A DNA stretch of 64,000 nt from Trileptium ribeirensis. Lineage: Eukaryota > Nematoda > Enoplea > Enoplida > Thoracostomopsidae. Location of the stretch: contig JASANE010028662.1 of assembly GCA_030248225.1 (NCBI GenBank), positions 45,641 to 109,640 of the forward strand, given 5' to 3'. Under the pieces are notes generated by a model. It worked only from the letters and a program-made list of their open reading frames with translations. It made no database searches and was not told the origin of the DNA. This document shows positions 1,024 through 58,731 of the stretch, in pieces. Position numbers and translations under genes: made by a program. Positions within the stretch are counted from its first letter, which is position 1. Every line of letters starts with the position of its first letter.

Positions 1024-4000
1024 CTGAAACCTCATTTTTAGTTGCTACAACCACTTATACAAACATAGTTACATACAGCACGCGTCAGAAATGAACGTTG
1101 GCTTCGTCAAGCTTACGACACGGCCCGGCTTACATTAACCATTACTTACAATCAAACAAAAACCAAAATAAGCTACGTTCTGTATGTGTTCAGCTAATCA
1201 CAATTTACATCACCAGTGAAATTACAGATTAAATTGCTGTCCGTTTAATTCCAGATTACTGCACCTGGGGTATACGTAGAAAATGTTCCGGCCCTATAAT
1301 AGCCCTGTGATATTCCCTAGCACATTAAAAATATGATTCTTGCATTAACAATGCGATAAATGTTGATTGGAGTAGTATTACACGGATACAATGAAACACA
1401 GCCAGTTCGTTAGCCATAGCGTGTCTAAGGGAGTGTTCCCACGCTCAAACTTTTTGCTCAAATTTTGGACCATTGTAATAATTATCCTTTAAGAATCGTC
1501 GTCGAATTTTAAACCCAAAATCCGAGAAAAAATTTGGAACATGTGAACCAGCCTAAGTTCCAGCTCGCTATGACGAATTTAACGCCTAATACGGATGAAC
1601 GGCCTCTCCGGTTACTGGTATACGATTGGTAAATAAACTTGTTTGCTGGTGTATTAGACTATTTAGGGATACATCATAAGTATCCTCATTGTAATATAAG
1701 TAAAAAATAATATCGACACTTTACAACTAAAATGAGGCGCAAGCAATAATCCTGTGCTGAACACTCTGTTATTAGTTCACTAATACTCAATGCAGCATAA
1801 CTCCAACTGTACAATGTACCTATAGTCCTCGTCAGAAATGACTGTCACGTTTCGAACGAACGAACATCGAACAGAAATCGAACAAAATTCGAACACATTT
1901 GGAACAAAATTTTGAAATTATCGAGCGAACATCGAACGAACTTCGAGCGAGCATCGAACGAACTTCGAGCGAGCATCGAACGAAGACCACTCATTTCTGG
2001 CGAGTACTGTATATACTCTACTTCCTGTTTCCAGCTCCTTACAAAAACCTCTACCGCGCTTCAACAAAACTTACTCTAAAAATCTTCCTGCAAAACCATG
2101 ACATTGATTTTAGGATGCATTAGGTTTTAATAAAATTAACTGTTCGTTATTTAAAAAACATGTCACGCAACTTAAGATTTAGCCTTTACATGACCTTATT
2201 TAGCTCCACGAATCTTCACATTAATATTGAAAAGTTACAGGCTGCTAGCTTTCTTCGGTTTCCTGTTGGCTTTGTTGACTGAGATCGACTCCGGCTTGGA
2301 CTACTTGTCGAATTCCGCGACTGGAATGCATGTCACGCAACTTAAGATTTAGCCTTCAAATGACCTTATTTAGCTCCACGAATCTTCACATTAATAGTTA
2401 AAGTGCTTACGTTTTCACACGCGGCTACCTTCCTCCGTTTTCCTGTTGGCTCTGTTGACTGAGATCGACTCAAACTTGGACTACTCATCGAATTCCGTGA
2501 CTGGAATAAATTATATATTATTATTATGTGTTAAGGTCAAACAATTACAACATACTACTGCTAAATCATTATAGGCAACTGATAAAATTGAATTGTGCAA
2601 TCTTGTCAAAATCTGGAATTCAGCGATAGCCTTATGAGATTGGTTCATAATAATATCCGAGAACCATTCCAGAACTTCATAAAAATTTAGATTTTGTCTG
2701 TAGCCAAACCTAGATCGGACGTCTATTATTATAAATGTACCATGACTGACATTTTGCTACATACCTTATTTATACCATATTGCTCCACTTAGTTTCAAAT
2801 TAAAATGACATTATCGTGGCAATAAGACAGAAAACAGTGAAAGATGATCAAGCTGCGATAGTCATGTTTCGTGCTATAAATGTTTTCAAATGCAACTTCA
2901 TTCATTTAAACTAGAATATCCATAAGTTACAAGATACATAATATGAATGCATCAAGGACAATTTTCAAGCACATGAAACCACACAAAATCACTAGTGTAT
3001 CATGTATCTCTGTTTTTAAAAAATAATGAAATTTTCGAAAGTTTTTAACAAATTTTATTAAAAATTATAATTTAAAACTTATTTTTACACTATTATGTAC
3101 GAGTGTCTAGCGACTGCACTATTAGATGATTTATAGAATGCAAACATTAAAACCTACATATAGATCCGTGGTAATAGTAGGTCCAAAATTGAAAAAATAC
3201 AAAAAATTATTGTTTGCTGTCAACGTTTCACACTTTAGCCTCTGAAGCGTGCCACACGGATAACAACATACGTACAGTACGCGCCATAAATGACCATCGC
3301 ATTTCGAATTAGTGGCTCGTTGGATATTTCGAAAATTTTTAAATCAGTAAATAAATTCTATTTTAAGAACAAATTTATTTCGAGCGAGTCGCGAGCGTGC
3401 GACAGTCATTTTTGACGGATACTCTACTCTCTATAGTAGATTTAATATAATTAAACTCACGTGTCCACTTACTGTGGCCACACACTCTTATATGCATGTC
3501 GTTAATCGCCAACAAACAAATTCACTTAGAATAGTTGAATCCTGAGTGATATTGAAGAGTTCTCATTGGTCAAGGCTGTGAAATTTGGCGGCGTCTGTAA
3601 TTTATGGTGTGATATACATAACTCAACTTCAGATAAGCAAATTAGCTCTCCAGATAGCTCTTTCAAAAGCTTAAATCTCTCTAGACGCAAAACCGATTCC
3701 AACTCCTTTTCCCTCAAAAGAGGGTCCGAATAGGGTTACTAGGGGTCCCATTAAAACACGATGACTCTGGATAACCACAGGCGTTATCTGACCAAGTTAT
3801 GGCTCATTTTGTTAGGAAAGTTTACCTTTATAATGCTATGTGGAGCACACTGTTTCCCAGGCAGGTCACTTACACTCCAGCGTTGGGTTAAAATCAGTGT
3901 GGGCACATGAGCCCTTGAGATCCCAGAAAATACCAAATTTGTCCTATCTCCTCAACCACTGGAACGATTCGACTGCGGCTGAATTCATTTTCTTAAGAAA

Positions 4001-7000
4001 CCAAAAATATTAATAGCTATGATCGGTGCGTTGCTATAGACCTAACCTGCCAGGCAGGGTTGTATCAGGATTGGGTTTTAAATTGGCCCTTGGGATCCCG
4101 TAGACACTAAATTGTTCATAATCTCCTTAAAAACCAGAGCGATCCGGCCGCGGTTGGACTCATTCTGTTCAGAAAGCAAATCTCTATTTATTTACACTCA
4201 GAATTCACTTTCCTTGGCAATGAGACAAGTCTCTTGTTGTAATGCTAATTGTGCAAAAGCTAAAACTTGCTCACACAACGACGAATATTATTAACCGTGC
4301 CCTCCCCTCGATATCACCAAAAGCTTGCTAAGCAAGTGTTGTTATTCCGCTTGTCACTACATATTTGAACATATGCCCAACTCGGCTACTATAGATTTTA
4401 AAGTGACGGGGCAAATTCTAGAGCGGTGTTGGCTACAAGAAATAAAGAGCACGATTATCATCACAAAAATGACAACATTCGTTGCTAGAAATAATAATTA
4501 CTACATTCGATCGGAATACATTCGTAAACCCTATTCAATTGTAGCACCAGGAGGACGTTATTTCACAGCGAAAAAAAGTAATTTCTTCCCACCAAAACCA
4601 ACATTCAAAGTATATATGCTATAAAATTAAATCTATTACCCAAGTCAACAATAATAATGCTTGGGAATCCTGAGCTAGTGTTCGCTGAATAATTACACAC
4701 AAATTATTACTGGTAATCGCTGTTCTTCCGAGCCAATACTGGACCCTGCCGAAAGATGATGATGCGGTTGATGAACATTTGCAAGTTGCTGCTGTTGTTG
4801 AGACTGTGCAGATATTGATGCTGCGTTCATCTGGTGATGTCCTGGGTGATGCGAAGTACTGGCTGAATGGCTAGACGACTGCTGAGAACTCACGTGGTGA
4901 CTGCCTGTCTGCCCAGGTTCGTCTTTAACTGCTGTTGATGCCGACAACGTTGTGACTGGTTGCTGCAGCCCTATTATATGTGGTGGTTGTGGGGGCATTA
5001 AGCCGGGTGGTAAAGCTCCCGGTGGAAAGAAACAGCCAGCAACGCCGCCGAATCCGCTACCCGGTGGAGCAAGCCCTGATAATGACTGTGGCAAAGCACC
5101 GGGAACCATTCCTGGCACCGAATGTCCACCACCACCGTGGCCGCCCGGCGTTGCCCCGCTCATTGTTGCCAAAAGTCCGACTGCAGCTGCTAGTGAGGTA
5201 GACGGCATCGACGTTGACGAAGAGGGCAGTGAAGGCATCATACCTCCGGGTACGGCTGTCTGAAAAGGTACCGGACCACCTGAGCCGGGTGGCGGACACG
5301 CCGTGCCCTGCCCCGAAGGCGGCCCAATGGGTCCATTGGCAGCCGAAATAGACGGTGTCGCAGATGCGGCATGAGGACTAGCCAGACCCGCAAGTTGTAT
5401 GCCCGCTATTCCGGCAGCTACAGGTCCAGCGCTGTTCACTGCTTGAGCTTGAGCGGCGGCTGCATGGGCGGCAAGTTGCTGGGCGTGCATTTGTTGCTAT
5501 AACAAAAACCGTAAAAATATATATAGAAATCATCAAATGTATTGGCAATGAATCTTATCGCATTGCCAGGGCGACGGGCTAACTCAACTTGGGTTTGACT
5601 CCCTCAACTGAAAGCTTGATGAAATCTCTGTTTGCGCCATTTTGCTAAGCTCGAAGTCCCATTCTTAGTTCGAAAAAAACGGGCTGATGAGGTTGGGTCT
5701 GGTCGCGAAGGCTTCGAGAAACCATATTATTTATTTCTCGAGAACCGGTACAGACATGAGTTTTTGGAACATAAAATTATTTTTTCCGCCTTATGCATAG
5801 ATTCCTTTCGTAACGATTATGCACATGGCACCAAAAAAATTTGAAATGGCCGATCACAAAATTTTAAAATGCAAAATTGAAATAGGAAGGCCAAATTTTT
5901 TGAACGTAAAAAAATTTATTTAGTACGACTTGCAACGCCATTAAGTAGGCCGGGCGCCGCAGAGCCTTGCTATGTTTGGATTGGTATCATTGACCTATTT
6001 TCTCAGGCGTGGCGAATGCTATCTCTGGGGGCATTGCCAAGGCACCCCCTTGACGGATTAACTATCGCACAGGGGAGCAGAGGTAGAAGGTAGGTAGGTA
6101 GGTAGAGGAATAGACGATATTAAGCGCCGCTTTGCACGTTTTAATGCAGAAAAACAAAGTTATTGCCCATTTTGAACCCACCAGAAATCCGAAAATAATA
6201 ACAAAACATCTGAGCTATATATAGCTGAAAAGGGGCGACCTGATTTCGAATCAATCAGTTTTGGGGGTGAGATATTATTGGGGGTGAGATATTATTGGGG
6301 GTCCAGAGATAATGGGGCAGGGGCGTCGCCAAGGAGGGCCATGCCCCCAGTTCGAATTTACAGCGCCCCTCCAGAAAGCCTTGGTGCCACCAGTTCGGAT
6401 TTTTTGCCCTTACAGAAACCTTGGTGCCCCCCGTTCGAATTTACAGTTAACTTGTGCCTCTCCAGAAAGCCTTGGTGCCCCCCAAGTCCGAATTTACAGC
6501 TAACTTGTGCCAATCCAGAAAGCCTTGGTGGCCCCAGTTCGAATTTACAGCTAACTTGTGCCAATCCAGAAAGACTTGGTGCCCCCCAGTTAGGATTTTC
6601 TCGCTACGCACCTGCAATGGGGTAATAGCTGAAAAGATGATGGGGCCCTTCCCTGAGTCTTTTTTCCTTCTGAGATACTATCATGTATCTTCGCACTTCC
6701 AAAATCAAATCTTCAAGTTTGTAACACCAAATTGTGTATCAAGCGACCATGAATATATCTGTTTATGTTAGTGTTTCCTAATATAAACATAAACAAGGAC
6801 TATTATATATATATACATATTTATATATCTTATTAGCCACCCCAACTCAAATTCTATCCTTAAATAAATACCGTGTTCAAACAATCCCATCTAAAGTAAG
6901 CCAAACCAAAATTTTCAATTATTGGTGTACATATTTAGTTACACACAAAAAAAATCATTCAATTATTAGAGATAATAATAATATACAAGCTAAGTAAATA

Positions 7001-10000: not shown

Positions 10001-13000
10001 AGTCATTTCTAACGGGTATAATACTGTACCAGGTTAACTAACGCGTTAACTACTTACGTTTGAATAGAAATGTAATTTGACAGCCGGTCGGTGGCTTCAG
10101 TCATGTCAAGGTTTTTGCTAAAGGTTTACATACTTTTCCGCCCGGGGTAGTAGAAATTCTTGTCTCTATGTCTAAGCCCAAGCCCAGCCTCGATCACAAT
10201 TGGGCATTAAATTTTTCAGCAGCCTTCACTCGATACTATGTAGATACTCATATCCACCCCATGAAGTCTAAAGTACTCCGGTTATCCAACAATGTTATTT
10301 ATGGAAGTAGGAAGTTGTCATGTTAACTGCTGTAGTGACCACGTTGGAATAGAATACAATGACAATCTCAATTTTTAGTTCCTCACGAAGAATCCGAATA
10401 TTTTTATAGCGTCGTACCAAAGCATACCGAGTAAAAACAACTAAACTTACATCAGGAGGTAATCTTGGAATCACCATGTCAATTATAGACTGCAAATTTT
10501 TCGCCACTTGTGACTAAAAACAATTATGTAACTGCTAAACCAGTATATACAATCTGTCACAATGCAACCATCAAACTCTAACACTTCACTCAAGTTAGCG
10601 TAGAGACTAGACGATGTATCACTCATCTCTTGGCAGGTGCAGAGTCATGGATAGAGCTTAATGTTCCTTAACCACGAGGATGGCGTCAAGGGACATCCGT
10701 GTAGAGAAAGCCACTTGTGACTAAAAACAAAAACAATTATGTATATAACTGCTAAACCAGAATATACAATCTGTGAGAATGCAACCATCAAACTCTAACA
10801 CTTCAGTCAAGTTGGCGTAGAGACTAGACCATGAATCACTCATCTCCTAGCAGGTGCAGAGTCATGGATAGAGCTTAATGTTCCTTAACCACGAGGATGG
10901 CGTCAAGGGACATCCGGAAGCCTGGACTAAAAACAAAAACAATTATGTATATAACGCTAAACCAGAATATACAACGGAGAAGCAACCACAAACCACACCA
11001 GCAAGTAGCGAGAGACAGACGAAACCCCCCAGCAGGCAGAGCAAAGCAACGCCAACCCAGGCGTGTAGAGAAAGCCACTTGTGACTAAAAACAAAAACAA
11101 TTATGTATATAACTGCTAAACCAGAATATACAATCTGTGAGAATGCAACCATCAAACTCTAACACTTCAGTCAAGTTGGCGTAGAGACTAGACGATGAAT
11201 CACTCATCTCCTAGCAGGTGCAGAGTCATTGATAGAGCTTAATGTTCCTTAACCACGAGGATGGCGTCAAGGTACATCCGTGTAGAGAAAGCCACTTGTG
11301 ACTAAAAACAAAAACAATTATGTATATAACTGCTAAACCAGAATATACAATCTGTGAGAATGCAACCATCAAACTCTAACACTTCAGTCAAGTTGGCGTA
11401 GAGACTAGACCATGAATCACTCATCTCCTAGCAGGTGCAGAGTCATGGATAGAGCTTAATGTTCCTTAACCACGAGGATGGCGTCAAGGGACATCCGTGT
11501 AGAGAAAGCCACTTGTGACTAAAAACAAAAACAATTATGTATATAACTGCTAAACCAGAATATACAATCTGTGAGAATGCAACCATCAAACTCTAACACT
11601 TCAGTCAAGTTAGCGTAGAGACTAGACGATGAATCACTCATCTCCTAGCAGGTGCAGAGTCATTGATAGAGCTTAATGTTCCTTAACCACGAGGATGGCG
11701 TCAAGGTACATCCGTGTAGAGAAAGCCACTTGTGACTAAAAACAAAAACAATTATGTATATAACTGCTAAACCAGAATATACAATCTGTGAGAATGCAAC
11801 CATCAAACTCTAACACTTCACTCAAGTTAGCGTAGAGACTAGACGATGTATCACTCATCTCTTGGCAGGCGCAGAGTCATGGATAGAGCTTAATTTTCCT
11901 TAACCACGAGGATGGCGTCAAGGGACATCCGTGTAGAGAAAGCCACTTGTGACTAAAAACAAAAACAATTATGTATATAACTGCTAAACCAGAATATACA
12001 ATCTGTGAGAATGCAACCATCAAACTCTAACACTTCAGTCAAGTTAGGGTAGAGACTAGACGATGAATCACTCATCTCCTAGCAGGTGCAGAGTCATGGA
12101 TAGAGCTTAATGTTCCTTAACCATGAGGATGACGTCAAGGGACATCCGTGTAGAGAAAGCCACTTGTGACTAAAAACAAAAACAATTGTGTATATAACTG
12201 CTAAACCAGAATATACAATCTGTGAGAATGCAACCATCAAACTCTAACAGTTCAGTCAAGTTAGCGTAGAGACTAGACGATGAATCACTCATCTCCTAGC
12301 AGGTGCAGAGTCATGGATAGAGCTTAATGTTCCTTAACCACGAGGATGGCGTCAAGGGACATCCGTGTAGAGAAAGCCACTTGTGACTAAAAACGGAACA
12401 ATTATGTATATAACTGCTAAACCAGAATATACAATCTGTGAGAATGCAACCATCACTCTCACTTCGTCAAGTTAGCGTAGAGACTAGACGATGAATCACT
12501 CATCTCCTAGCAGGGCACAGTCATGATAGAGCTTAATGTTCCTTAACCACGAGGATGCGTCAAGGACATCCGTGTAGAGAAAGCCACTTGTGACTAAAAC
12601 AAAAACAATTATGTATATAACTGCTAAACCAATTACAATCTGTGAGAAACAACCATCAAACTCTAACACTTCAGTCAAGAGCGAGAGACTAGACGAGAAT
12701 CACTCATCTCCAGCAGGGCAGAGTCATAAGAGCAAGTTCCAACCACGAGGAGGCGTCAAGGACATCCGTGAGAGAAAGCCACTGTGACAAAAACAAAAAC
12801 AATATGTATATAACTGCAAACGAATATACAGACGTGAGGCAACTCTAACACTTCACTCAAGTTAGCGTAGAGACTAGACGATGTATCACTCATCTCTTGG
12901 CAGGCGCAGAGTCATGGATAGAGCTTAATTTTCCTTAACCACGAGGATGGCGTCAAGGGACATCCGTGTAGAGAAAGCCACTTGTGACTAAAAACAAAAA

Positions 13001-16000
13001 CAATTATGTATATAACTGCTAAACCAGAATATACAATCTGTGAGAATGCAACCATCAAACTCTAACACTTCAGTCAAGTTAGGGTAGAGACTAGACGATG
13101 AATCACTCATCTCCTAGCAGGTGCAAAGTCATGGATAGAGCTTAATGTTCCTTAACCATGAGGATGACGTCAAGGGACATCCGTGTAGAGAAAGCCACTT
13201 GTGACTAAAAACAAAAACAATTGTGTATATAACTGCTAAACCAGAATATACAATCTGTGAGAATGCAACCATCAAACTCTAACACTTCAGTCAAGTTAGC
13301 GTAGAGACTAGACGATGAATCACTCATCTCCTAGCAGGTGCAGAGTCATGGATAGAGCTTAATGTTCCTTAACCACGAGGATGGCGTCAAGGGACATCCG
13401 TGTAGAGAAAGCCACTTGTGACTAAAAACAAAAACAATTATGTATATAACTGCTAAACCAGAATATACAATCTGTGAGAATGCAACCATCAAACTCTAAC
13501 ACTTCAGTCAAGTTAGCGTAGAGACTAGACGATGAATCACTCATCTCCTAGCAGGTGCACAGTCATGGATAGAGCTTAATGTTCCTTAACCACGAGGATG
13601 GCGTCAAGGGACATCCGTGTAGAGAAAGCCACTTGTGACTAAAACAAAAACAATTATGTATATAACTGCTAAACCAGAATATACAATCTGTGAGAATACA
13701 ACCATCAAACTCTAACACTTCAGTCAAGTTAGCGTAGAGACTAGACGATGAATCACTCATCTCCTAGCAGGTGCAAAGTCATGGATAGAGCTCAATGTTC
13801 TGTAACAAGGAGGAGGATGGCGTCGGGGGACACTCCTGTAGAAAAAGCCTCTACAGTACATCAATAAGTGAAGTCCAAGATATACCGACATCGGTGAAAA
13901 GATCCACGAGTGATCATACATTGGACCAGCCGGGATTCGAACCCGGATCTCTAGCTTGCAAGACTAGCGCGCTACCATTACACCACAGGCCCCGATGGAG
14001 GATGGCGTCGGAGGACACTCCTGTAGAGAAAGCCTCTACAGTACATCAATAAGTGAAGTCCAAGATATACCGACATCGGTGAAAAGATCCACGAGTGATC
14101 ATACATTGGACCAGCCGGGATTCGAACCCGTATCTCTAGCTTGCAAGGCTAGCGCGCTACCATTATACCACAGGCCCCGATCACAGCGTGTTCAGCTACG
14201 CTATATATGCTAGCGTAGTGAGATGCTACGTCGGTACCATAAGCCTAAGTTCCACATTTTATATGTATAACACTTACTTTAAGCCCAAAACTAAATAGGG
14301 GTTACCGTCCCCGAATCCCCATTATAAGCTGTTTTTGTGTTTAAACGTATACATGATTTTTTGTGGATTACAGTAGAGGCTTTCTCTACACACGTCGAGC
14401 TCACGAAATGAAACGATCCACGAATGATCTTAGCGATAAAACCGCCGGGATTTTCGAACCTGGGCCTCTGTGTTACAAGACTAGCGCGCTATCGCTATTA
14501 CCACAGGCCCTGATCAACTCCCTTTATTGCTACATATTCTACTATACATACATAGGTATTATACTAACACCGTAGCTGCAAAGTGTGGATATTTTGTGAT
14601 ATTGGTAAACTTAGTCTTCTATGGTCCCTTCGGTTCCAAAATCTAAATAATTATCAATAATACTACATACATAGACGACAAAGCAAAAAAATTGGAAATT
14701 TTAATACTTCTCAGCGTTTATTTGGTGAATTATGAAACAAGACATTATTCAATATTGTACCAAATTGATATGAAGTTTACGTATTTACGCCTTGTTCGAC
14801 TTCAATAACCCCTAAAGATGTCGGACACTTGGCATTGCTGAAAACTGCAATGACAGAATATTTAATCTGCACTGCATAAATCTGGTTAGTTCACTAATCC
14901 CTCTCTTAATTGAGAATACAGTATATAAATGTGAAAATAATATGATTTTAAGTTAATGTTAATTTTATGAGCTCAGTTCTTTTAGATTATAGTACCGACA
15001 TCAAATATGCATCCGTAATACTATACAGACGGCAAAGCAAAGTATTTCTGTCAATTTGCTATACTTAGTAGTTTTCAGGTATAATAAGGGGCGTCGCTAA
15101 GGCGGAGCCACAGAGGGTCGTGCCCCCCCAGAGTTCGAATTTACAGCTAACTTGTGCCCCTCCAGGAAGTCTTGGTGCCCGCCCCCCCCAGGTCGAATTT
15201 ACAGGTAACTTGTGCCCCTCCAGAAAGTTTTGGTGCCTCCAGTTCGAATTTACAGCTAACTTGTGTCCCTCCAGAAAGTCTCGGTGCCTCAGTTCGGATG
15301 TTGTGCCCCTACAGAAAGTCTTGGTGCCGCCCCCCAACGGTTCGAATTTAAAGCTAAGTTGTGTCCTTCCAGAAAGACTTGGTGCCCCCAGTTCGGATTT
15401 TGTGCCCCTCCAGAAAGTCTTGGTGCCCTCCCAGTTCGAAATTAAAGCTAACGTGTGTCCGTGCCCCTACAGAAAGTCTTAGTGCGCCCAGTTCGGATGT
15501 TGTGCCCCTACAGAAAGTCTTGGTGCCGCCCCCCCACCGATTCGAATTTAAAGCTAAGTTGTGTCCCTCCAGAAAGACTTGGTGCCCCCAGTTCGGATTT
15601 TGTGCCCCTCCAGAAAGTCTTGGTGCCCTCCCAGTTCGAAATTAAAGCTAACGTGTGTCCGTGCCCCTACAGAAAGTCTTAGTGCCCCCAGTTCGGATGT
15701 TGTGCCCCTACAGACAGTCTTGGTGCCCCCCTCACCGATTCGTATTTAAAGCTAAGTTGTGTCCCTCCAGAAAGCCTTGGTGCCCTCCCAGTTCGAAATT
15801 AACGCTAACGTGTGTCCCTCCAGAGACTTGGTGCCCCCAGTTCGGATTTTGTGCCCCTCCAGAAAGTCTTGGTGCCCGCCACCCCCAGGTCGAATTTACA
15901 GGTAACTTGTGCCCCTCCAGAAAGCCTTGGTGCCCCCCAGTTCAGATTTTCTGGCTACGCCCCTGGGTATAATGTATATGTGAAAGCAATCTCCTCAGAC

Positions 16001-19000
16001 TAACCAAAACCTGAACGACTATTTGGCCCTTGAATATTCCTTGTTCGTTAGCTTTGTACTTTTTTAGCTACATCTGCGCACTGAATTTTTTAACTGAAAA
16101 GGTCACCCTATTGGCTAAGCGTTGAGGTAAGCTTTACTACATTTTTTTGGCAAAATCTGAAAATTATTACACTTTTCAAACCAATCACAAATTATTCAAC
16201 CCATAAAAATAATAATATATATCATAATATAATAATTCAATATAATATAATAACAATACTTAACAATATAACAATTCAAGTAATATACCAATCCACAATA
16301 AAATGTTACATACCTGTTTGTGCATTTCGGCGTTCAACGCATACGACATCTCGTAGTACTGAAACCAAATTGAAAAACTCGACCACTTATGTGGATCAAT
16401 TCATCACATTTTGAGACTCAGCTTGTCAATGCGATTCGAATGATATATCATACATGCTCAGAGGGGACAGGGGATTATCACGCAAAGGCTCAAACTCCTT
16501 TGACCTTGAGGCCTCACCGACCGCTCTCCGAAAGAGTTAGCCTGATCCCCTGAGGCACAATCAGGCAAAATTGGGTATAATTGTCAAACGCTACGAGAAC
16601 ATTGGCAAAATTAGTGCTAAAAAATTTACAATTTGAGTTAACCCCTTGACGACTCCCTGATCGCCTTTGGCCGCCGTACCCGCTATCATCCTGGGATTTC
16701 GGAACTCGCCCATGTATGATATATACAAAGCTATACATTTCTCGAGAAATATTTTTGAATATTAAAATTTTGGATTCCAAGGTGGGAGGCCACTAGTAAC
16801 AAAAAATATGGCCCCAATCGACATTTTCTGAACCGCTTCGCCGAGCACCAAAATTTCAGCTGTATCTTTACGACCAAATATGGTATGAAAATGTTTTACA
16901 ATTCCGCCCGCATACCCAGCGATTGTTAAAACAAATGTCCTCGAATTGGCCATTCTGCTTAATTATTATAGAAAGGTACATAATCAAATGTACCCCGTTT
17001 GAAAATTAATAGCTTGGGATTCTGGCGGGCTCTCGTAGTCAAGTCTGACCCCGTGTTCAGGGTGGGGGTCCCAAAAATTATATATCTATATTATATATAC
17101 ACTTATATATATTATATATTAATATGGTACATATCTGGGTCAGTATCACTGCATCTTACGATTGAGATGGGCAAAAATGCCAGAATCCGCAGAAATTTCA
17201 GATTACGTACGTTGGTTGCAGATAAAACTTCTCTGGTCAAACTTTCGGTGGTGTGGGGATGGCCAAAAGGGGTCAGCAGCCGGACATTATGGCTAAGTCA
17301 CCTCCCCTACAACGGTAACGAGACAACGTTTGCTTTTTAACCCAAATCTACTGCACGTTACCTTTGTAATCTTGAAACTATGAAACTGGGTACAGTACTC
17401 GCCAAAAATGACCGTCGCATTTCGAGGGAGTCGCGAGCGAGTGACTCACTCGAGATTTCGAAGCTATTTTAATTAATAGTATATACATAAATTCTATTTT
17501 AAAACTAATTTATTTCGAGCGAGTCGCGAGCGAGCGACAATCATTTTTGGCGGGTACTGTATTTCGTTGTTTGCGTAGTTAGTACTATAATCGCAGATCC
17601 CGCGGGGGATGATGGGTGTACGTTCCCCAATCTCGGACAAAAACCCCTTGGTATAGGTATAAACCCTAATGTAAAAATTCTAGTTTAAATCAGCTCGTAT
17701 CCCGCACCCAAACTTCAAAAAGAATCTCCGCCACTGGATATTAATTGGATAAACTCATAACCCGCAACTTGATAAACAAAATCTGCTCACAGCTAGATTC
17801 CATTCTACGTATATATCACTAAATTACACTTATTCGTGAAACAACTTAGATATTTAATGTGTTATATATAAACTATAGCCTCGTAATCACGCAGAGCATC
17901 TTTTAAGAGTACTATAAAGCAATGGCGTCGCAACTGCTTCGCAAGTGGAGCCCCCGGCAAAAAGTTGAAGAGGTCGGTTGTTTACATTCTATTTGTGGCC
18001 CATGTCAACTTTAGGGGTCGAACGTTATAACGTTTGAAAAAAGAACAACTTAGAGCGGGGGGTTCGGGGGGGCAGTAGCCCCCCCCCCGACTTGGGCTTA
18101 GTACATAGTTCATATAGGGACCTTAGCTTAGGCTAAGACTAAGGCTTAGTATATATCGAGAACGGGATGGTATGCACTATTCTTTGGCCCCTAAAGTGGA
18201 CACGGTGCCTATTTGTCATAACCCAATCAGTTAAATCTTTTTCACGCTTGTTAGTGAAAGGTGGAAAGGGTCTCTCCCCTGCCCACCTCTCTTGCGACGC
18301 TTCTGTTATAAAGTACAAGAATACGCGAAATGAGAAAGCATCTGTCATGAAAACGTATCTAATCGAAAAGTTCCGGTAGCCTCGCAGATTCGTAGACAAA
18401 CAGGGTTTGGGACCCTCGACTATATACCTGTATTGGCAGTAAGTGTCAACACAGGACATTCCTAACCGATTACTGCTGCGACACCGCTTCTCTTAAGAAG
18501 AAAAATATTTCCAACTATTTAAAAACAAAATTCGATCATTTGACATACTTTCAGGCAAGGCAGCATATTTTTGAAACTAGATGCTTCGCTGAGTCCGCTG
18601 GGTTTACACTATTTAAGACACTAGTGTCCTACACTACATTAAGACAACAAAGCATTATGTATTTTATTTACAAAGTTTAATGTATATATACAAACAATCC
18701 ACAAATTTATGCATTAATGCATTGATTGTCCAGTGTGATCGATGTTGTTTAAAGTCGGATATTCCATAAAGTCACAAAAAAATCATTTTATTGCGTACGT
18801 TTCGAAATTGGAGATGTGGAATATGGCATTTTTTATCATTTTCGGTGGACAAAGAAAGGTACTCATCCAATAATTCTGGATTTTGGTTTATGGACCTTAG
18901 AGAAGCTTTTAGCTTCCCTGACATAAATGATCCTGTTGTTATAAACGCCCTTGCTGATACAGAAAAATTGACAATATGTTTTGCTAAAGTTCCACGGTCT

Positions 19001-32480: not shown

Positions 32481-34770
32481 GTTTGTACTTGTGCTGCATA
32501 TGAATTGTTCACATTGCATCCGATGCGATGAGATCAAATCTGGTTTGTACTTGTGCTGCATATGAATTGTTCACATTGCATCCAATACGGTGAGATCAAA
32601 TCTGGTTTGTACTTGTGCTGCATATGAATTGTTCACATTGCATCCGATGCGATGAGATCAAATCTGGTTTGTACTTGTGCTGCATATGAATTGTTCACAT
32701 TGCATCCGATGCGATGAGATCAAATCTGGTTTGTACTTGTCCATAATTTCACACTATCGAGTCAATCGTTTCCTGCTGCATATGAATTGTTCACATTGCA
32801 TCCGATGCGATGAGATCAAATCTGGTTTGTACTTGTGCTGCATATGAATTGTTCACATTGCATCCGATGCGATGAGATCAAATCTGGTTTGTACTTGTGC
32901 TGCATATGAATTGTTCACATTACATGTGATGCAATGAGATCAAATCTGGTTTGTACTTGTGCTGCATATGAATTGTTCACATTGCATCCGATGCGAGGAG
33001 GTCAAATCTGGTTTGTACTTGTGCTGCATATGAATTGTTCACATTGCATCCGATGCGAGGAGGTCAAATCTGGTTTGTACTTGTGCTGCATATGAATTGT
33101 TCACATTAAATGTGATGCGGAACTCAAAATTAGGAAAATCGCTCAAAAATTACCTTGCTTATTTGCCGCAGAAGCTCGCTTGTGCTGTATCGATGCCCCC
33201 TCCCCCCCCCATCTCAGTCTCGACTCGAATAATAACTCCACACAACCCTACACCTTATATACGAACGAACCTCCGTTCACCCACTTCCCCCCATCACCCC
33301 CCCGCACGATCAAATCTGGTTTGTACTTGTGCTGCATATGAATTGTTCACATTGCATCCGATGACGATGGGTGGCATCGTCAAATCTGGTTTGTACTTGT
33401 GCTGCATATGAATTGTTCATCATCTGCATCCGATGCGATGAGATCAAATCTTGTTTTTCTTGTTCTGCATATTTTGTTCTTCCCTCCTCAATCAATCTTT
33501 CCTTCCCCCCATCACCCCCCCATTTGTTCAACATTGCATCGCGATACGAGGAGGTCAAATCTGGTTTGTACTTGTGCTGCAGATGAATTGTTCACATTGC
33601 ATCCGATGCGAGGAGGTCAAATCTGGTTTGTACTTGTGCTGCATATGAATTGTTCACATTGCATCCGATGCGATGAGATCAAATCTGGTTTGTACTTGTG
33701 CTGCATATGAATTGTTCACATTGCATCCGATGCGATGAGATCAAATCTGGGTTGTACTTGTGCTGCATATGAATTGTTCACATTACATGTGATGCAATGA
33801 GATCAAATCTGGTTTGTACTTGTGCTGCATATGAATTGTTCACATTGCATCCGATGCGATGAGATCAAATCTGGTTTGTACTTGTGCTGCATATGAATTG
33901 TTCACATTGCATCCAATACGGTGAGATCAAATCTGGTTTGTACTTGTGCTGCATATGAATTGTTCACATTGCATCCGATGCGATGAGATCAAATCTGGTT
34001 TGTACTTGTGCTGCATATGAATTGTTCACATTGCATCCGATGCGAGGAGGTCAAATCTGGTTTGTACTTGTGCTGCATATGAATTGTTCACATTGCATCC
34101 GATGCGAGGAGGTCAAATCTGGTTTGTACTTGTGCTGCATATGAATTGTTCACATTGCATCCGATGCGATGAGATCAAATCTGGTTTGTACTTGTGCTGC
34201 ATATGAATTGTTCACATTGCATCCGATGCGATGAGATCAAATCTGGTTTGTACTTGTGCTGCATATGAATTGTTCACATTGCATCCGATGCGATGAGATC
34301 AAATCTGGTTTGTACTTGTGCTGCATATGAATTGTTCACATTGCATCCGATGCGAGGAGGTCAAATCTGGTTTGTACTTGTGCTGCATATGAATTGTTCA
34401 CTTTTCATCCGTTGCGTGGTGGTAAAATCTGGTTTGTACTTGTGCTGCATATGAATTGTTCACATTGCATCCAATACGGTGAGATCAAATCTGGTTTGTA
34501 CTTGTGCTGCATATGAATTGTTCACATTGCATCCGATGCGATGAGATCAAATCTGGTTTGTACTTGTGCTGCATATGAATTGTTCACATTGCATCCAATA
34601 CGGTGAGATCAAATCTGGTTTGTACTTGCGCTGCATATGAATTGTTCACATTACATGTGATGCAATGAGATCAAATCTGGTTTGTACTTGTGCTGCATAT
34701 GAATTGTTCACATTGCATCCAATGCGAGGAAGTCAAATCGGATTGTACTCTGTGCCATATGAATTGTTCA
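32440..34770. repeat. Satellite, 62-bp units derived from the 32-bp units
   Basis: The 62-bp unit joins GATGCGATGAGATCAAATCT and GGTTTGTACTTGTGCTGCAT to ATGAATTGTTCACATTGCAT, the latter matching the 32-bp unit. About 35 units are seen, with variants GAGGAGGTC and CAATACGGTG distributed among them. It is interrupted by unrelated blocks at 32,738-32,775, 33,108-33,308 and 33,465-33,540; the last two are C-rich. Confidence 0.92.
33195..33306. other. C-rich island within the satellite
   Basis: CCCCCTCCCCCCCCC and CTTCCCCCCATCACCCCCCC lie inside otherwise AT-rich satellite; a second island at 33,500-33,530 carries the near-identical CTTCCCCCCATCACCCCCC. Potential G-quadruplex on the minus strand. 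Confidence 0.6.
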
Positions 34771-38687: not shown

Positions 38688-39410
38688 CTGTCCGTATCTC
38701 TCGGGTAAAGAAGACATTTGAGCTTGAAACTAAGCCTCGGCTTCCCGAAATGCGGAGATGACATCGTTGATGAACGCCGCGTGTTCACACTGCGTCAGAT
38801 GCAATCCCATTTTTGCATATATATCTATATACATTATAGAGTGTTCATTAGGCTCTACATGGACTACGTCAGGTCGCAGTTGCACATTCCTCAATTAATC
38901 GCTAAATTCGGCTAGCACAATTGAGGGCTTTCGAGTTGGTCCTACTAGCCCAAAATTAGTCAATTTTGAAGATACAGCAGCCAATCTTAACGCCATTCGA
39001 CTCAGCTCCAAGAGCAAGTTCGAAAAATAACCAACTTCGCCATTTTTATAAATTTGCCCGATTTTTTGATGGGAAAATTGTTTATGCGACTTCTTGACCA
39101 GTTTGTAACATATATATCCTCCAACAGCAAATGACGCAAGCAGATACTGTGAAATTGAATTGAGAATCAAAAAATGTCGTAAAATGACCAAAATTAGTAT
39201 ATTCTGAGCGACCTGAGTTGAAAAGTACTAAACTTGCCGCTGTATCGTAAAAACTGACCCCAATTTCGGGCTAGGGCCTGGGGCAAATTGAAAAGGCCCC
39301 AAGTTAAAGATATACTACACCAATAGACCCCATATTTTTCTAAACATTTTCCATGAGTGTATTCGAAGATTTGTCAAAACAATCCCGGCTTCCCTCCGTC
39401 GTAAGCCAGT

Positions 39411-41314
39411 ATGGGCCGTGGTCAAGCTTGGCGTGCCCTTAAGCAAAAACAAAATGCATATCGTAAATTTAAACGTTGCAATTCAGCAGCAGCATGGTCG
39501 AACTACTGTCGCAAGTCACAGATTGCTTCCTTCCATGCCGAAGAGTCAATTCGTAGATATGAAGCAAAATTAGCGGAAAACATTGATTCTGACCGTAAAT
39601 CTTTCTTTAAATACGCTTTGTATAAACAGTCCGTTCCTTCCTCCATAGGCCCTATGCGTCGTGATGACGGTTCATTATGCAATTCTGCTGCCGAGGACTG
39701 TGAACGCTTTAATTCTTATTTTGCATCAGTATTTAATTCTGATGTTTTTACTGCTCCGTTAACTTATCCTAAAACAGACCAACGCATATACAACATGTAT
39801 TTTTCGACTTCCGAAGTAGCAAAGGCAGTACGCTCTGCCAAGCCGAATGCTTCTCCTGGCATTGACGGTATTAGTAACCTTTTCCTTGTCAACACTTTAC
39901 CAGTTACTATTGAAACAATAACCAAAATTTTCAATATGTCATTAACTACCGGAGTTTTCCCGGCGCAGTGGAAAGACGCTAAAGTGATTCCTATATATAA
40001 AAGTAAAGGTGATCGAGCATGGTGCAATAATTACCGGCCTATCAGTTTAACTCCCTCGATTAGTAAAATTTTTGAAACATTGGTACGGGACAAGTTGATG
40101 GTATTTCTTACTGCTAATAATTTGATTCGATCATCTCAGCATGGATTCTGTCGCAACCGATCTACCACAACACAGTTGTTACAATTCCTAGATTTCACAA
40201 CGCGGTCACTAGATGTTGGTGACTGGCTTGACGTAGTCTATGTGGACTTCTGCAAAGCTTTCGACAAGGTGCATCACGAGGCTTTATTAACGAAACTTCA
40301 CAGCTATGGTATAAACGGTACGCTCCTGGATTGGTTCCGCAGCTACTTAACAGAGCGTCGCCAGTTTGTCTCTTTGAACGGGTCATCTTCTTCATGGTCT
40401 CCTGTTAGTAGTGGCGTGCCCCAGGGCTCAGTTTTAGGACCGCTACTTTTCGTCATCTTCATCAACGACATCGACGAATATGTGTCATGCGGAATTTTCA
40501 AGTACGCCGATGATCTAAAACTTGCTCGTAGAATTACTAGACTTAACGCTGATTGGTGTTTTGACGCTCTTCAAGCGGACCTGGACGGTCTAATAAAATT
40601 TTGTCGTGAGTGGTAAATTTCGATCAACAGTAGTAAATGCCATGCTATGCATCTAGGTTATGATAATCCGCGCGTTGCTTACTCATTAGCTAACGATCTG
40701 CTATCCTATGTTGATCAGGAAAAAGATCTAGGTGTACTCTTCTGCAGCAGTTTAAAATTCTCGGAACATTGCTGTCGAATAGCCAAGCGAGCTTTTCAAG
40801 TCATTTATCTCTTACGTCGCACCATTCAGCGATGGACAAGAAAAGTCTGGCTCAGTTTATACCGCTCCCTCATCAGGCCTCACGTCGAGTACGCCGCTTG
40901 CGTCTGGTCCCCATGTTTGGAGAGAGATATTATTGTCATAGAACGAGTTCAAAGACACGCGACTAAGCTTATGCCATCTGTATCTCATCTACCGTACCAC
41001 GATCGCCTAAATTATTTTGGTCTCCAAACTCTCTATGCCCGTCGCATTCGCAGTGACTTGATTTTGGTGTACAAAATGTTTCACGGAGATATCGACTTGA
41101 ACATTGCGTCCTTTTTCGAAACTGGTTATCATGTCACCCGCGGTCATAATTTTAAATTGAAAACAATTGATGTCGCCCGACTTGATTTGAGGCACTACTT
41201 TTTCTATCATCGTGTGGTGGCTTTATGGAATCGTCTTCCTTGGGAGGTGGTTAACGCTCCCTCCCTGTCATCGTTCAAACAAAGGTTGCATGCTTCAAAC
41301 TATCTACCATTGTA
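39411..41314 (+). pseudogene. LINE (CR1/jockey-like) ORF2, reverse transcriptase, near intact
   Basis: A non-LTR retrotransposon polymerase. The frame from 39411 holds NNYRPISLTPSISKIFE (motif 2a region), YVDFCKAFDKVHH (motif A), SSGVPQGSVLGPLLF (motif B) and KYADDLKLAR (catalytic YADD). A TAA at 40614-40616 interrupts it; the same frame reopens at once with SSKCHAMHLG and runs through LYRSLIRPHVEYAACVWSP to a TAA at 41315. Just upstream, another frame (about 39,365-39,430) gives SLRRKPVWAV, typical of the linker after the endonuclease, so there is also a frameshift there. The endonuclease domain is missing: the copy is 5' truncated. Related by sequence to the copy at 46,048. Probably inactive, but young compared with the others. 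Confidence 0.92.
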
Positions 41315-41319
41315 ATTGA

Positions 41320-58134: not shown

Positions 58135-58731
58135 AAGCGTACCACAAGAGGATCACAACTCCTGGGATGTATCATTACCATTTTGCATAATGGCTTATAA
58201 TTCTTCGGTACACACAACAACAAAGTACCACCGTTTTTGCTAATGCACGGGTTTTATCCTAGGTTGCCCGGAGAATACGACACGCATAGTGCAGCCACTG
58301 GGTACACTGGAACCCACTCATATAGGGCCAACGCGCAGCGCTGGATGGCTTCTATTAGGGAGAGTGCATACCATTCAATGAGAGCCGCCCAGGAAGTAAA
58401 TCGGCTAAGCTACGATAGGCGAGCTCGCGAACCACGCTATCAAACAGGTGAATTAGTTTGGGTTTATAGGCACGACACCATGCCAGGAACATCTAGAAAA
58501 CTCACGCCTTGTTGGTGCGGACCATATGAAATACTAGGAATCACCCCGCCGCGCATGCGCGTAAGAAAGCATCCTAATCCGGAGAGGCATGGCACATGTC
58601 GTGCACATCAATAGAACTAAGCCGTGTTTTAGGGCATTAGATCCAGTACCTAATGTAGGGGACTGGCTAGGTCAAGTACACGCTTCCGTATTAGAAAGCG
58701 GTTTGAATGAAACAACAACGAATTTTCGCTG
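58135..58731 (+). pseudogene. Ty3/gypsy-like integrase C-terminal part
   Basis: The retrotransposon integrase inserts cDNA. Shortly after the left LTR, a frame gives AYNSSVHTTT, then after a 1-base shift LMHGFYPRLPGEY, the end of the catalytic core. AQEVNRLSYDRRA, LVWVYRHD and KLTPCWCGPYEIL follow, as in the C-terminal GPY/F region. A second shift near 58,590 leads to VVHINRTKPCF. All of gag, protease, reverse transcriptase and most of integrase are missing, so the element has a large internal deletion. Confidence 0.88.

Follow-up and report, generated by a model that had tools for sequence, protein, structure and literature searches.

Minisatellite-like tandem duplications of an exon/intron boundary, known as mirages, have been described in the amphioxus globin genes BflGb6 and BflGb9 and in Adh3; the passages devoted to them report RT-PCR results that suggest normal splicing, and BflGb6 haplotypes with 6 and 3 units (PMC3087553). 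Boundary repeats in lancelet PGBD5 are likewise reported, together with the Adh and troponin C mirages, to be spliced accurately (PMC3902484). In humans, a retained unit of the ABCA7 intron 18 VNTR introduces a premature stop, and the effect measured for VNTR length is that exon 19 is skipped; splice-factor sites are the authors' suggested explanation (PMC5954066). Boundary repeats in the genes of human segmental duplications are stated to be potential activators of cryptic splice sites and sources of introns (PMC2812944).

The minus strand of the window (the whole stretch of 64,000 nucleotides analysed) carries a Groucho/TLE gene. Exons 2-9, once spliced, give an open Groucho reading frame, and the Q-domain part of the translation matches Pfam TLE_N (1.6e-46). 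Trichuris suis was the top of the 8 Groucho matches listed in one search, and the lowest E-values among the 15 matches listed in another belonged to Trichuris suis, T. trichiura, and Trichinella pseudospiralis; whitefly Groucho likewise showed 63% identity. A nematode source within or close to that group is likely; a LINE reverse-transcriptase search pointed to no organism. Exon 4 (16314-16358, minus strand; YYEMSYALNAEMHKQ; donor CAG|GTATGT) is supported by tblastn matches of Groucho orthologues. The 63-nt exon 5 (10451-10513, minus strand; SQVAKNLQSIIDMVIPRLPPD) has the donor GAT|GTAAGT and the native acceptor TTGTTTTTAG|TCA, and its opening residues, S-Q-V-A-K, were matched on visual comparison with T-E-I-A-K in the Groucho of Trichuris suis.

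Intron 4 contains an array with a TRF period of 217 (10503-13846), composed of a native unit (10503-10709, minus strand), which holds 11 nt of exon 5, the acceptor, and the end of intron 4, and 15 further tandem units of approximately 217 bp (10710-13846, minus strand), each repeating the exon 5 acceptor. The initial annotation had described the repeats as decoy acceptors, and they are indeed true duplicates of the exon 5 acceptor, all 15 lying upstream of it on the transcribed strand. Its span and count stand in part: the array is present, while the far end is tRNA-repeat-derived sequence and the number 15 may be inflated. Similarly, of the 10-11 exon bases attributed to every unit, the full 11 (TCACAAGTGGC) were found in 13/15 decoys, and the exact sequence TTGTTTTTGTTTTTAG in 11/15; the acceptor AG is kept in 14/15, having been lost in the decoy at 12786. 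We consider this array to be probably a boundary-spanning minisatellite of the amphioxus mirage kind, produced by duplication and unequal exchange, selectively near-neutral, and with decoys that are mostly skipped.

The composition of the unit points to its source. The unit fuses 11 exon 5 nt and the end of intron 4 with approximately 35-40 bp of edge sequence from a tRNA-Ala (TGC) gene repeat, which is present as two 185-bp tandem copies at 13812-14181 (minus strand); this edge matches the unit end over 40 bp, of which 34 bp are the unit end itself. Eleven such 40-bp stretches in the array, each crossing a unit joint, match the tRNA repeat (80-82.5% identity, E down to 5e-6). The terminal unit (13628-13846, minus strand) starts like a decoy, ends in the tRNA-repeat edge, and continues directly into the tRNA-Ala repeat; the array is still flanked by exon 5 on one side and the tRNA repeats on the other. 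The unit junction shows a 3-bp microhomology (GCC) inside a hairpin of the tRNA-Ala repeat (CTGTAGA..TCTACAG, 13836-13856; in copy 2, at 14021-14041, an 8-bp perfect stem), the satellite junction GTAGAGAAAGCC|ACTTGTGAC falling within the hairpin loop or at the start of the second arm. The final three of the 11 exon bases (GGC) are the microhomology common to the tRNA-repeat edge. The exon bases belong to coding sequence that Groucho relatives share, and exon 5 is therefore the source of this part of the unit. The first extra copy may have arisen by one microhomology-mediated tandem duplication, and unequal exchange could then have amplified it to an array.

Homogenisation of the inner units is evident: the nine clean inner units share 95.4-99.5% pairwise identity, above the 91.2% and 91.8% identity to the reference unit of the two edge units, namely the native unit, which is also 10 bp shorter than the reference, and the terminal unit. 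Units in low-quality patches were omitted from this comparison as probably erroneous, their identity to the reference unit being 82-94%. TRF arrays with a period of at least 20 (selected rows summed) cover approximately 14% of the window, which suggests that array birth is common here. The same Groucho gene also contains a second boundary-spanning duplication (2159-2507, minus strand), in which exon 8 with its acceptor CAG and the 5' part of intron 8 are present in two copies approximately 180 bp apart.

There is about an even chance, in our estimation, that the array is real and its copy number wrong, with alleles or overlapping reads concatenated and gaps filled by low-quality reads, a view compatible with any of the other explanations. 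Scattered deletions are confined to two bounded stretches. In the first (10910-11063), unit 10920 has 63 deletions and the end of unit 10710 has 7; the second (12383-12840) comprises three units with 10, 22, and 18 deletions (1, 15, and 7 of T) and surrounds the point at which the two copies of a 5-unit block meet. T is the base most often deleted across the two patches (33/63 in unit 10920), and the losses are strand-asymmetric in two units (33/50 T vs 11/78 A in unit 10920; 15/50 T vs 3/78 A). However, T enrichment is absent in 2/4 patch units (7/18, P=0.10; 1/10, P=0.93). At the variable columns, agreement is highest for a lag of 5 (165/188 vs 0.74-0.76 at seven other lags), and this 5-unit higher-order block hints at either turnover or misassembly; such blocks arise naturally through unequal exchange, and the two blocks differ at no fewer than two clean sites (columns 92 and 150). 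The authors of the BflGb6 study likewise describe the draft assembly of their repeats as aberrant (PMC3087553). Taken together, the patches and the 5-unit block repeated around one of them suggest consensus or assembly error and make the copy number of 15 suspect; it is the count of the assembly and may be too high.

A second explanation, which we regard as unlikely, is that splicing into the decoys occurs at a low, measurable rate, that the resulting nonsense transcripts decay, and that array length slightly lowers Groucho output with no regulated switch. A small and crude splice model, trained on seven of the Groucho gene's own acceptors, scored 11 of the 14 AG-retaining decoys above the native acceptor and 3 below it, and all are transcribed ahead of the native site. 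Most decoys also have a T tract longer than that of the native site, in agreement with the initial annotation, which had proposed scoring of this type. The in-frame stop that it predicted within about 20 codons was found for 13/14 AG-retaining decoys, and by this frame reading the use of most decoys would truncate Groucho in the Q domain; the exception, decoy 11084, reads 69 codons before a stop because its frame crosses a probably erroneous patch.

The combined acceptor and donor scores bear on this explanation from both sides. Native exon 5 reached 19.98, compared with 14.89 for the top pseudo-exon with both sites in the clean array, and none of the 6645 acceptor-donor pairs that were compared within intron 4 scored as high. 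The maximum among these, 19.13, belonged to a pseudo-exon (12593-12463) whose donor sits in a patch judged erroneous, and a control pair from the same intron outside the array scored 15.37. However, real exons 2, 3, 4, and 7 scored 10.71, 2.93, 9.91, and 3.80 (leave-one-out), so that the best clean pseudo-exons beat four of eight real exons; donor weakness is therefore no bar to decoy use. Among single donors, the recurrent ATT|GTATAT of the clean units scored 1.9 and one clean-unit donor (12249) 3.64, with 8.79 for exon 5 and -1.37 for exon 7. With these four exons below the pseudo-exons and a seven-site model, we rejected exon definition as clean proof that the decoys are ignored. Recursive splicing was also considered. 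In a recursive splice (ratchet) site, a donor comes immediately after the acceptor (AG|GT); all 14 AG-retaining decoys read AG|TC, and we rejected this candidate.

That the decoys are mostly skipped remains our preferred reading. Exon 5 would be defined as a 63-nt exon by its good acceptor and GTAAGT donor, whereas the decoy acceptors, having no comparably good donor downstream, would mostly be skipped by the spliceosome, and for this reason the array is probably near-neutral. The regular mRNA reported for amphioxus mirages of similar anatomy also argues against leaky decoy use (PMC3087553, PMC3902484). Between the two options of the initial annotation, splicing control dependent on copy number and a tolerated burden, we find more in favour of a tolerated burden, or none.

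It is very improbable that the array exerts copy-number-dependent control of splicing, as a tuned throttle or switch for functional Groucho. The anatomy permits it, with AG intact in nearly every unit, and in ABCA7 exon 19 skipping changes with the length of an intronic VNTR, each unit of which opens with bases of a donor site; retention of the unit, which uses its own splice site, is described there as unchanged by length (PMC5954066). The distribution of variable columns over the nine clean units gave no significant sign of extra conservation in the acceptor segment that would mark selection on the decoys (1/16 variable columns in columns 1-35, P=0.23; 0/16 in columns 1-27, P=0.11), and recent amplification accounts for the high identity of the units. 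Acceptor strength and nothing further backs such control here. We find it equally hard to credit that some 15 acceptors, most of them above the real one, form a trap, tunable by length, through which some of the Groucho pre-mRNA ends up as nonsense transcripts, with array length setting the dose of the co-repressor and varying between individuals or even somatically. Finally, that a dispersed satellite or transposon family inserted beside exon 5 and donated its acceptor is scarcely credible and was rejected as the primary reading: the window is repeat-rich and the unit contains a piece of tRNA repeat, but the 11 bases of exon sequence code for part of the Groucho Q domain, and at E 1e-3 the only match of the 217-bp unit within the window and outside the array was 34 bp in the tRNA repeat.

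Our literature search, covering titles, abstract openings, and selected passages with limited access to subscription papers, found no comparable array in Groucho and recognised none of this anatomy outside amphioxus. The Groucho array, lying outside the amphioxus cases found in that search, is a clear case of a splice boundary turned minisatellite in which both source edges and the junction can be read. With 11 higher-scoring and 3 lower-scoring copies preceding the real site, it offers a natural test of splice-site choice and of whether, as has been proposed, new introns are seeded by arrays of this type. Like the internal tandem repeats of human segmental-duplication genes, it lies at an exon-intron boundary; those repeats are given as 30-bp units on average, present four times, with about half in coding sequence, unlike the Groucho array (PMC2812944). 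The ABCA7 VNTR is also an intronic tandem array beside an exon with a splice-site motif in each unit, although its 25-bp units are described as beginning with a donor, whereas the Groucho units repeat an acceptor (PMC5954066). The PGBD5 repeats are described as imperfect, the 108-bp one being a triplication, and in this they differ (PMC3902484). The amphioxus mirages are closest: in both, the unit spans an exon/intron boundary and the splice signal is retained, and BflGb6 is reported to show the same pattern of homogenised inner and diverged edge units (PMC3087553). The Groucho array has about 15 units of 217 bp compared with the few of the BflGb6 haplotypes, its unit contains only 11 exon nt and a tRNA-repeat edge, and its Groucho relatives indicate a probable nematode and not a cephalochordate.

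Groucho/TLE lies on the minus strand, where eight exons (numbered 2-9) were placed by conserved reading frame and GT/AG borders: exon 2 at 22280-22171, exon 3 at 20464-20401, exon 4 at 16358-16314, exon 5 at 10513-10451, exon 6 at 9667-9593, exon 7 at 5496-4711, exon 8 at 2500-2411 and exon 9 at 1023-958. Spliced together, they give an open frame throughout, and exons 2, 3, 4 and 6 were found directly by tblastn with three Groucho relatives as queries. The Q-domain part matched Pfam TLE_N at 1.6e-46; the best three of its 15 protein matches by E-value were from Trichuris suis (67% identity), T. trichiura (67%) and Trichinella pseudospiralis (63%); next came the whitefly Bemisia tabaci (63%) and other insects. 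By this ranking, the source is probably a nematode from the Trichuris and Trichinella clade or one related to it.

The intron 4/exon 5 acceptor lies within the native unit of a tandem array (10503-10709), and 15 further units of approximately 217 bp (10710-13846), here called decoys, repeat it. The initial annotation had described this array correctly, including the position of every decoy upstream of the native acceptor on the transcribed strand; its statements about individual units held for most of them. The acceptor AG was kept in 14 of the 15 decoys. All 11 exon bases were present in 13 and incomplete in two, and the longer pyrimidine tract ascribed to the decoys occurred as the exact TTGTTTTTGTTTTTAG in 11 and not in the other four. 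Of the 14 AG-keeping decoys, 13 bore out the stop said to come within about 20 codons in the Groucho frame, with at most 20 codons read; from the remaining one, at 11084, the stop came only after 69 codons, the frame crossing a damaged-looking patch of the array.

To the unit, exon 5 contributes 11 nt (coding strand TCACAAGTGGC) and intron 4 its 3' end; a third piece, of approximately 35-40 bp, matches the edge of a tRNA-Ala repeat. Two copies of this 185-bp repeat lie on the Groucho strand inside intron 4, directly beyond the array (13812-14181); Rfam tRNA scores were 65.2 and 54.3 bits, and ARAGORN assigned both as Ala-TGC. A degenerate third copy was seen at 14409-14514 (76% over 106 bp). 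The repeat edge matched 11 places in the array over 40 bp at 80-82.5% identity, 34 of the 40 bp being the end of the unit, and the terminal unit runs unbroken into the first tRNA repeat. At the unit junction, between GTAGAGAAAGCC and ACTTGTGAC, GCC is common to both parent sequences. The corresponding point of the tRNA repeat lies in a hairpin, CTGTAGAG..CTCTACAG, whose stem is a perfect 8 bp at 14021-14041 and 7 bp at 13836-13856. The start of exon 5 encodes SQVAK where, by eye, T. suis Groucho has TEIAK; because this sequence is coding, the exon is the source of the exon piece. In the simplest history, the array would have started with one tandem duplication, mediated by microhomology of exon 5 with the tRNA repeat, and unequal exchange would then have amplified the duplicated unit.

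When 16 Groucho splice borders were searched against the window, long adjoining second copies were found for the exon 5 acceptor and for both exon 8 borders. The other secondary matches (exon 2, 7 and 8 acceptors) were short and distant among the matches listed, which for the exon 2 acceptor were five of 18. At 2159-2507 there is a tandem duplication of exon 8 together with the first part of intron 8; the second copy of exon 8 (2327-2159) keeps its acceptor CAG and, by eye, an open frame, and has lost the GTAAGC donor.

Other repeats were also observed. Tandem repeats of the CAGAAAG..TTGGTGCC type look alike by eye at 6342-6598 and 15122-15943, in two different Groucho introns, and are perhaps a dispersed family. 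Upstream of the placed exons, a 62-bp unit is repeated approximately 32 times at 32774-34770. A LINE-like reverse transcriptase frame with one in-frame stop occupies 39405-41315; its first part had 6463 relatives among 7976 scored, the top-scoring match being 41% identical. At 58201-58614 lies an open frame, probably a retroelement, that matched an integrase C-terminal domain weakly and below the cutoff.

Splice-site scoring bears on the proposal that the decoys could compete. An acceptor weight matrix built from the gene's other seven acceptors was applied to the 354 AGs of intron 4, and 11 decoys ranked above the native acceptor (12.99 to 11.35 versus 11.20); of the remaining AG-keeping decoys, two scored 10.1 and one 2.82. 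Most decoys are thus not poor acceptors. The donor recurrent in clean units, those outside the patches, is ATT/GTATAT, which scored 1.9 versus 8.79 for the exon 5 donor; a better donor, at 12249 in one clean unit, scored 3.64. Two donors in the array exceeded 6, and both of them (12463 and 12637) lie within the second patch. Among acceptor-donor pairs 30-300 nt apart, pseudo-exons whose two sites both fall in clean array sequence scored at most 14.89, versus 19.98 for exon 5. Speaking against a clear advantage of exon 5, four real Groucho exons fell below 14.89 by leave-one-out (10.71, 2.93, 9.91 and 3.80). A pseudo-exon with a patch donor reached 19.13, and a pair outside the array 15.37. Exon definition, as modelled by these matrices, would favour native exon 5, but on its own it leaves room for decoy use.

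Nine clean units showed 95.4-99.5% pairwise identity, a comparison made without the patch units (82-94% to the reference unit); against the reference unit, identity was 91.2% for the native unit and 91.8% for the terminal one. At 20 variable columns, with the native unit left out, agreement between units peaked at lag five (165 of 188, versus 0.74-0.76 at seven other lags), and therefore the five-unit block 11725-12777 recurs as 12778-13846. Scattered deletions affect four units, together with the end of unit 10710, and form patches at 10910-11063 and 12383-12840; one patch surrounds the point where the two blocks meet. Of the four main units, two had a significant bias towards T: unit 10920 lost 63 bases, 33 of them T (33 of its 50 T versus 11 of its 78 A), and in unit 12583 T made up 15 of 22. 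The T excess was not significant in units 12778 (7 of 18) and 12376 (1 of 10). Such bounded, strand-asymmetric loss resembles an unpolished long-read consensus, and the patches are probably assembly consensus errors. Because of this loss and the patch around the block joint, the copy number of 15 needs spanning reads before it is trusted.

Judged from its sequence, the Groucho array is a genuine minisatellite across an exon-intron boundary whose origin can be read, and it is most likely near-neutral. Low-level use of the decoys is quite possible. The copy-number-dependent splicing control envisaged in the initial annotation, a tuned switch on Groucho splicing, is unsupported and seems a remote possibility.

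Among known systems, a functional counter-example is ABCA7, in which the length of an intronic VNTR is reported to change exon 19 skipping; its units bear donors, and retention of a unit via its own donor did not vary with length. In Caenorhabditis elegans, the minisatellite CeRep25B is described as over-represented near alternative splicing regions (PMC4039745). Tandem arrays across exon-intron boundaries in amphioxus have been named mirages; in one account, the BflGb6 repeats join a 3' intron end to a 5' exon part in units of 150-160 bp, number six and three in two haplotypes, and have edge units that escape homogenisation, and the draft assembly seemed aberrant (PMC3087553). The same account states that many mirage units could act as cryptic sites and that RT-PCR data for Adh3 and globin suggest undisturbed regular splicing (PMC3087553), and undisturbed splicing is likewise reported for Adh, troponin C and PGBD5 (PMC3902484). 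The Groucho array shares with the amphioxus mirages all three structural features that were compared, and it is therefore classed by its structure as a mirage.
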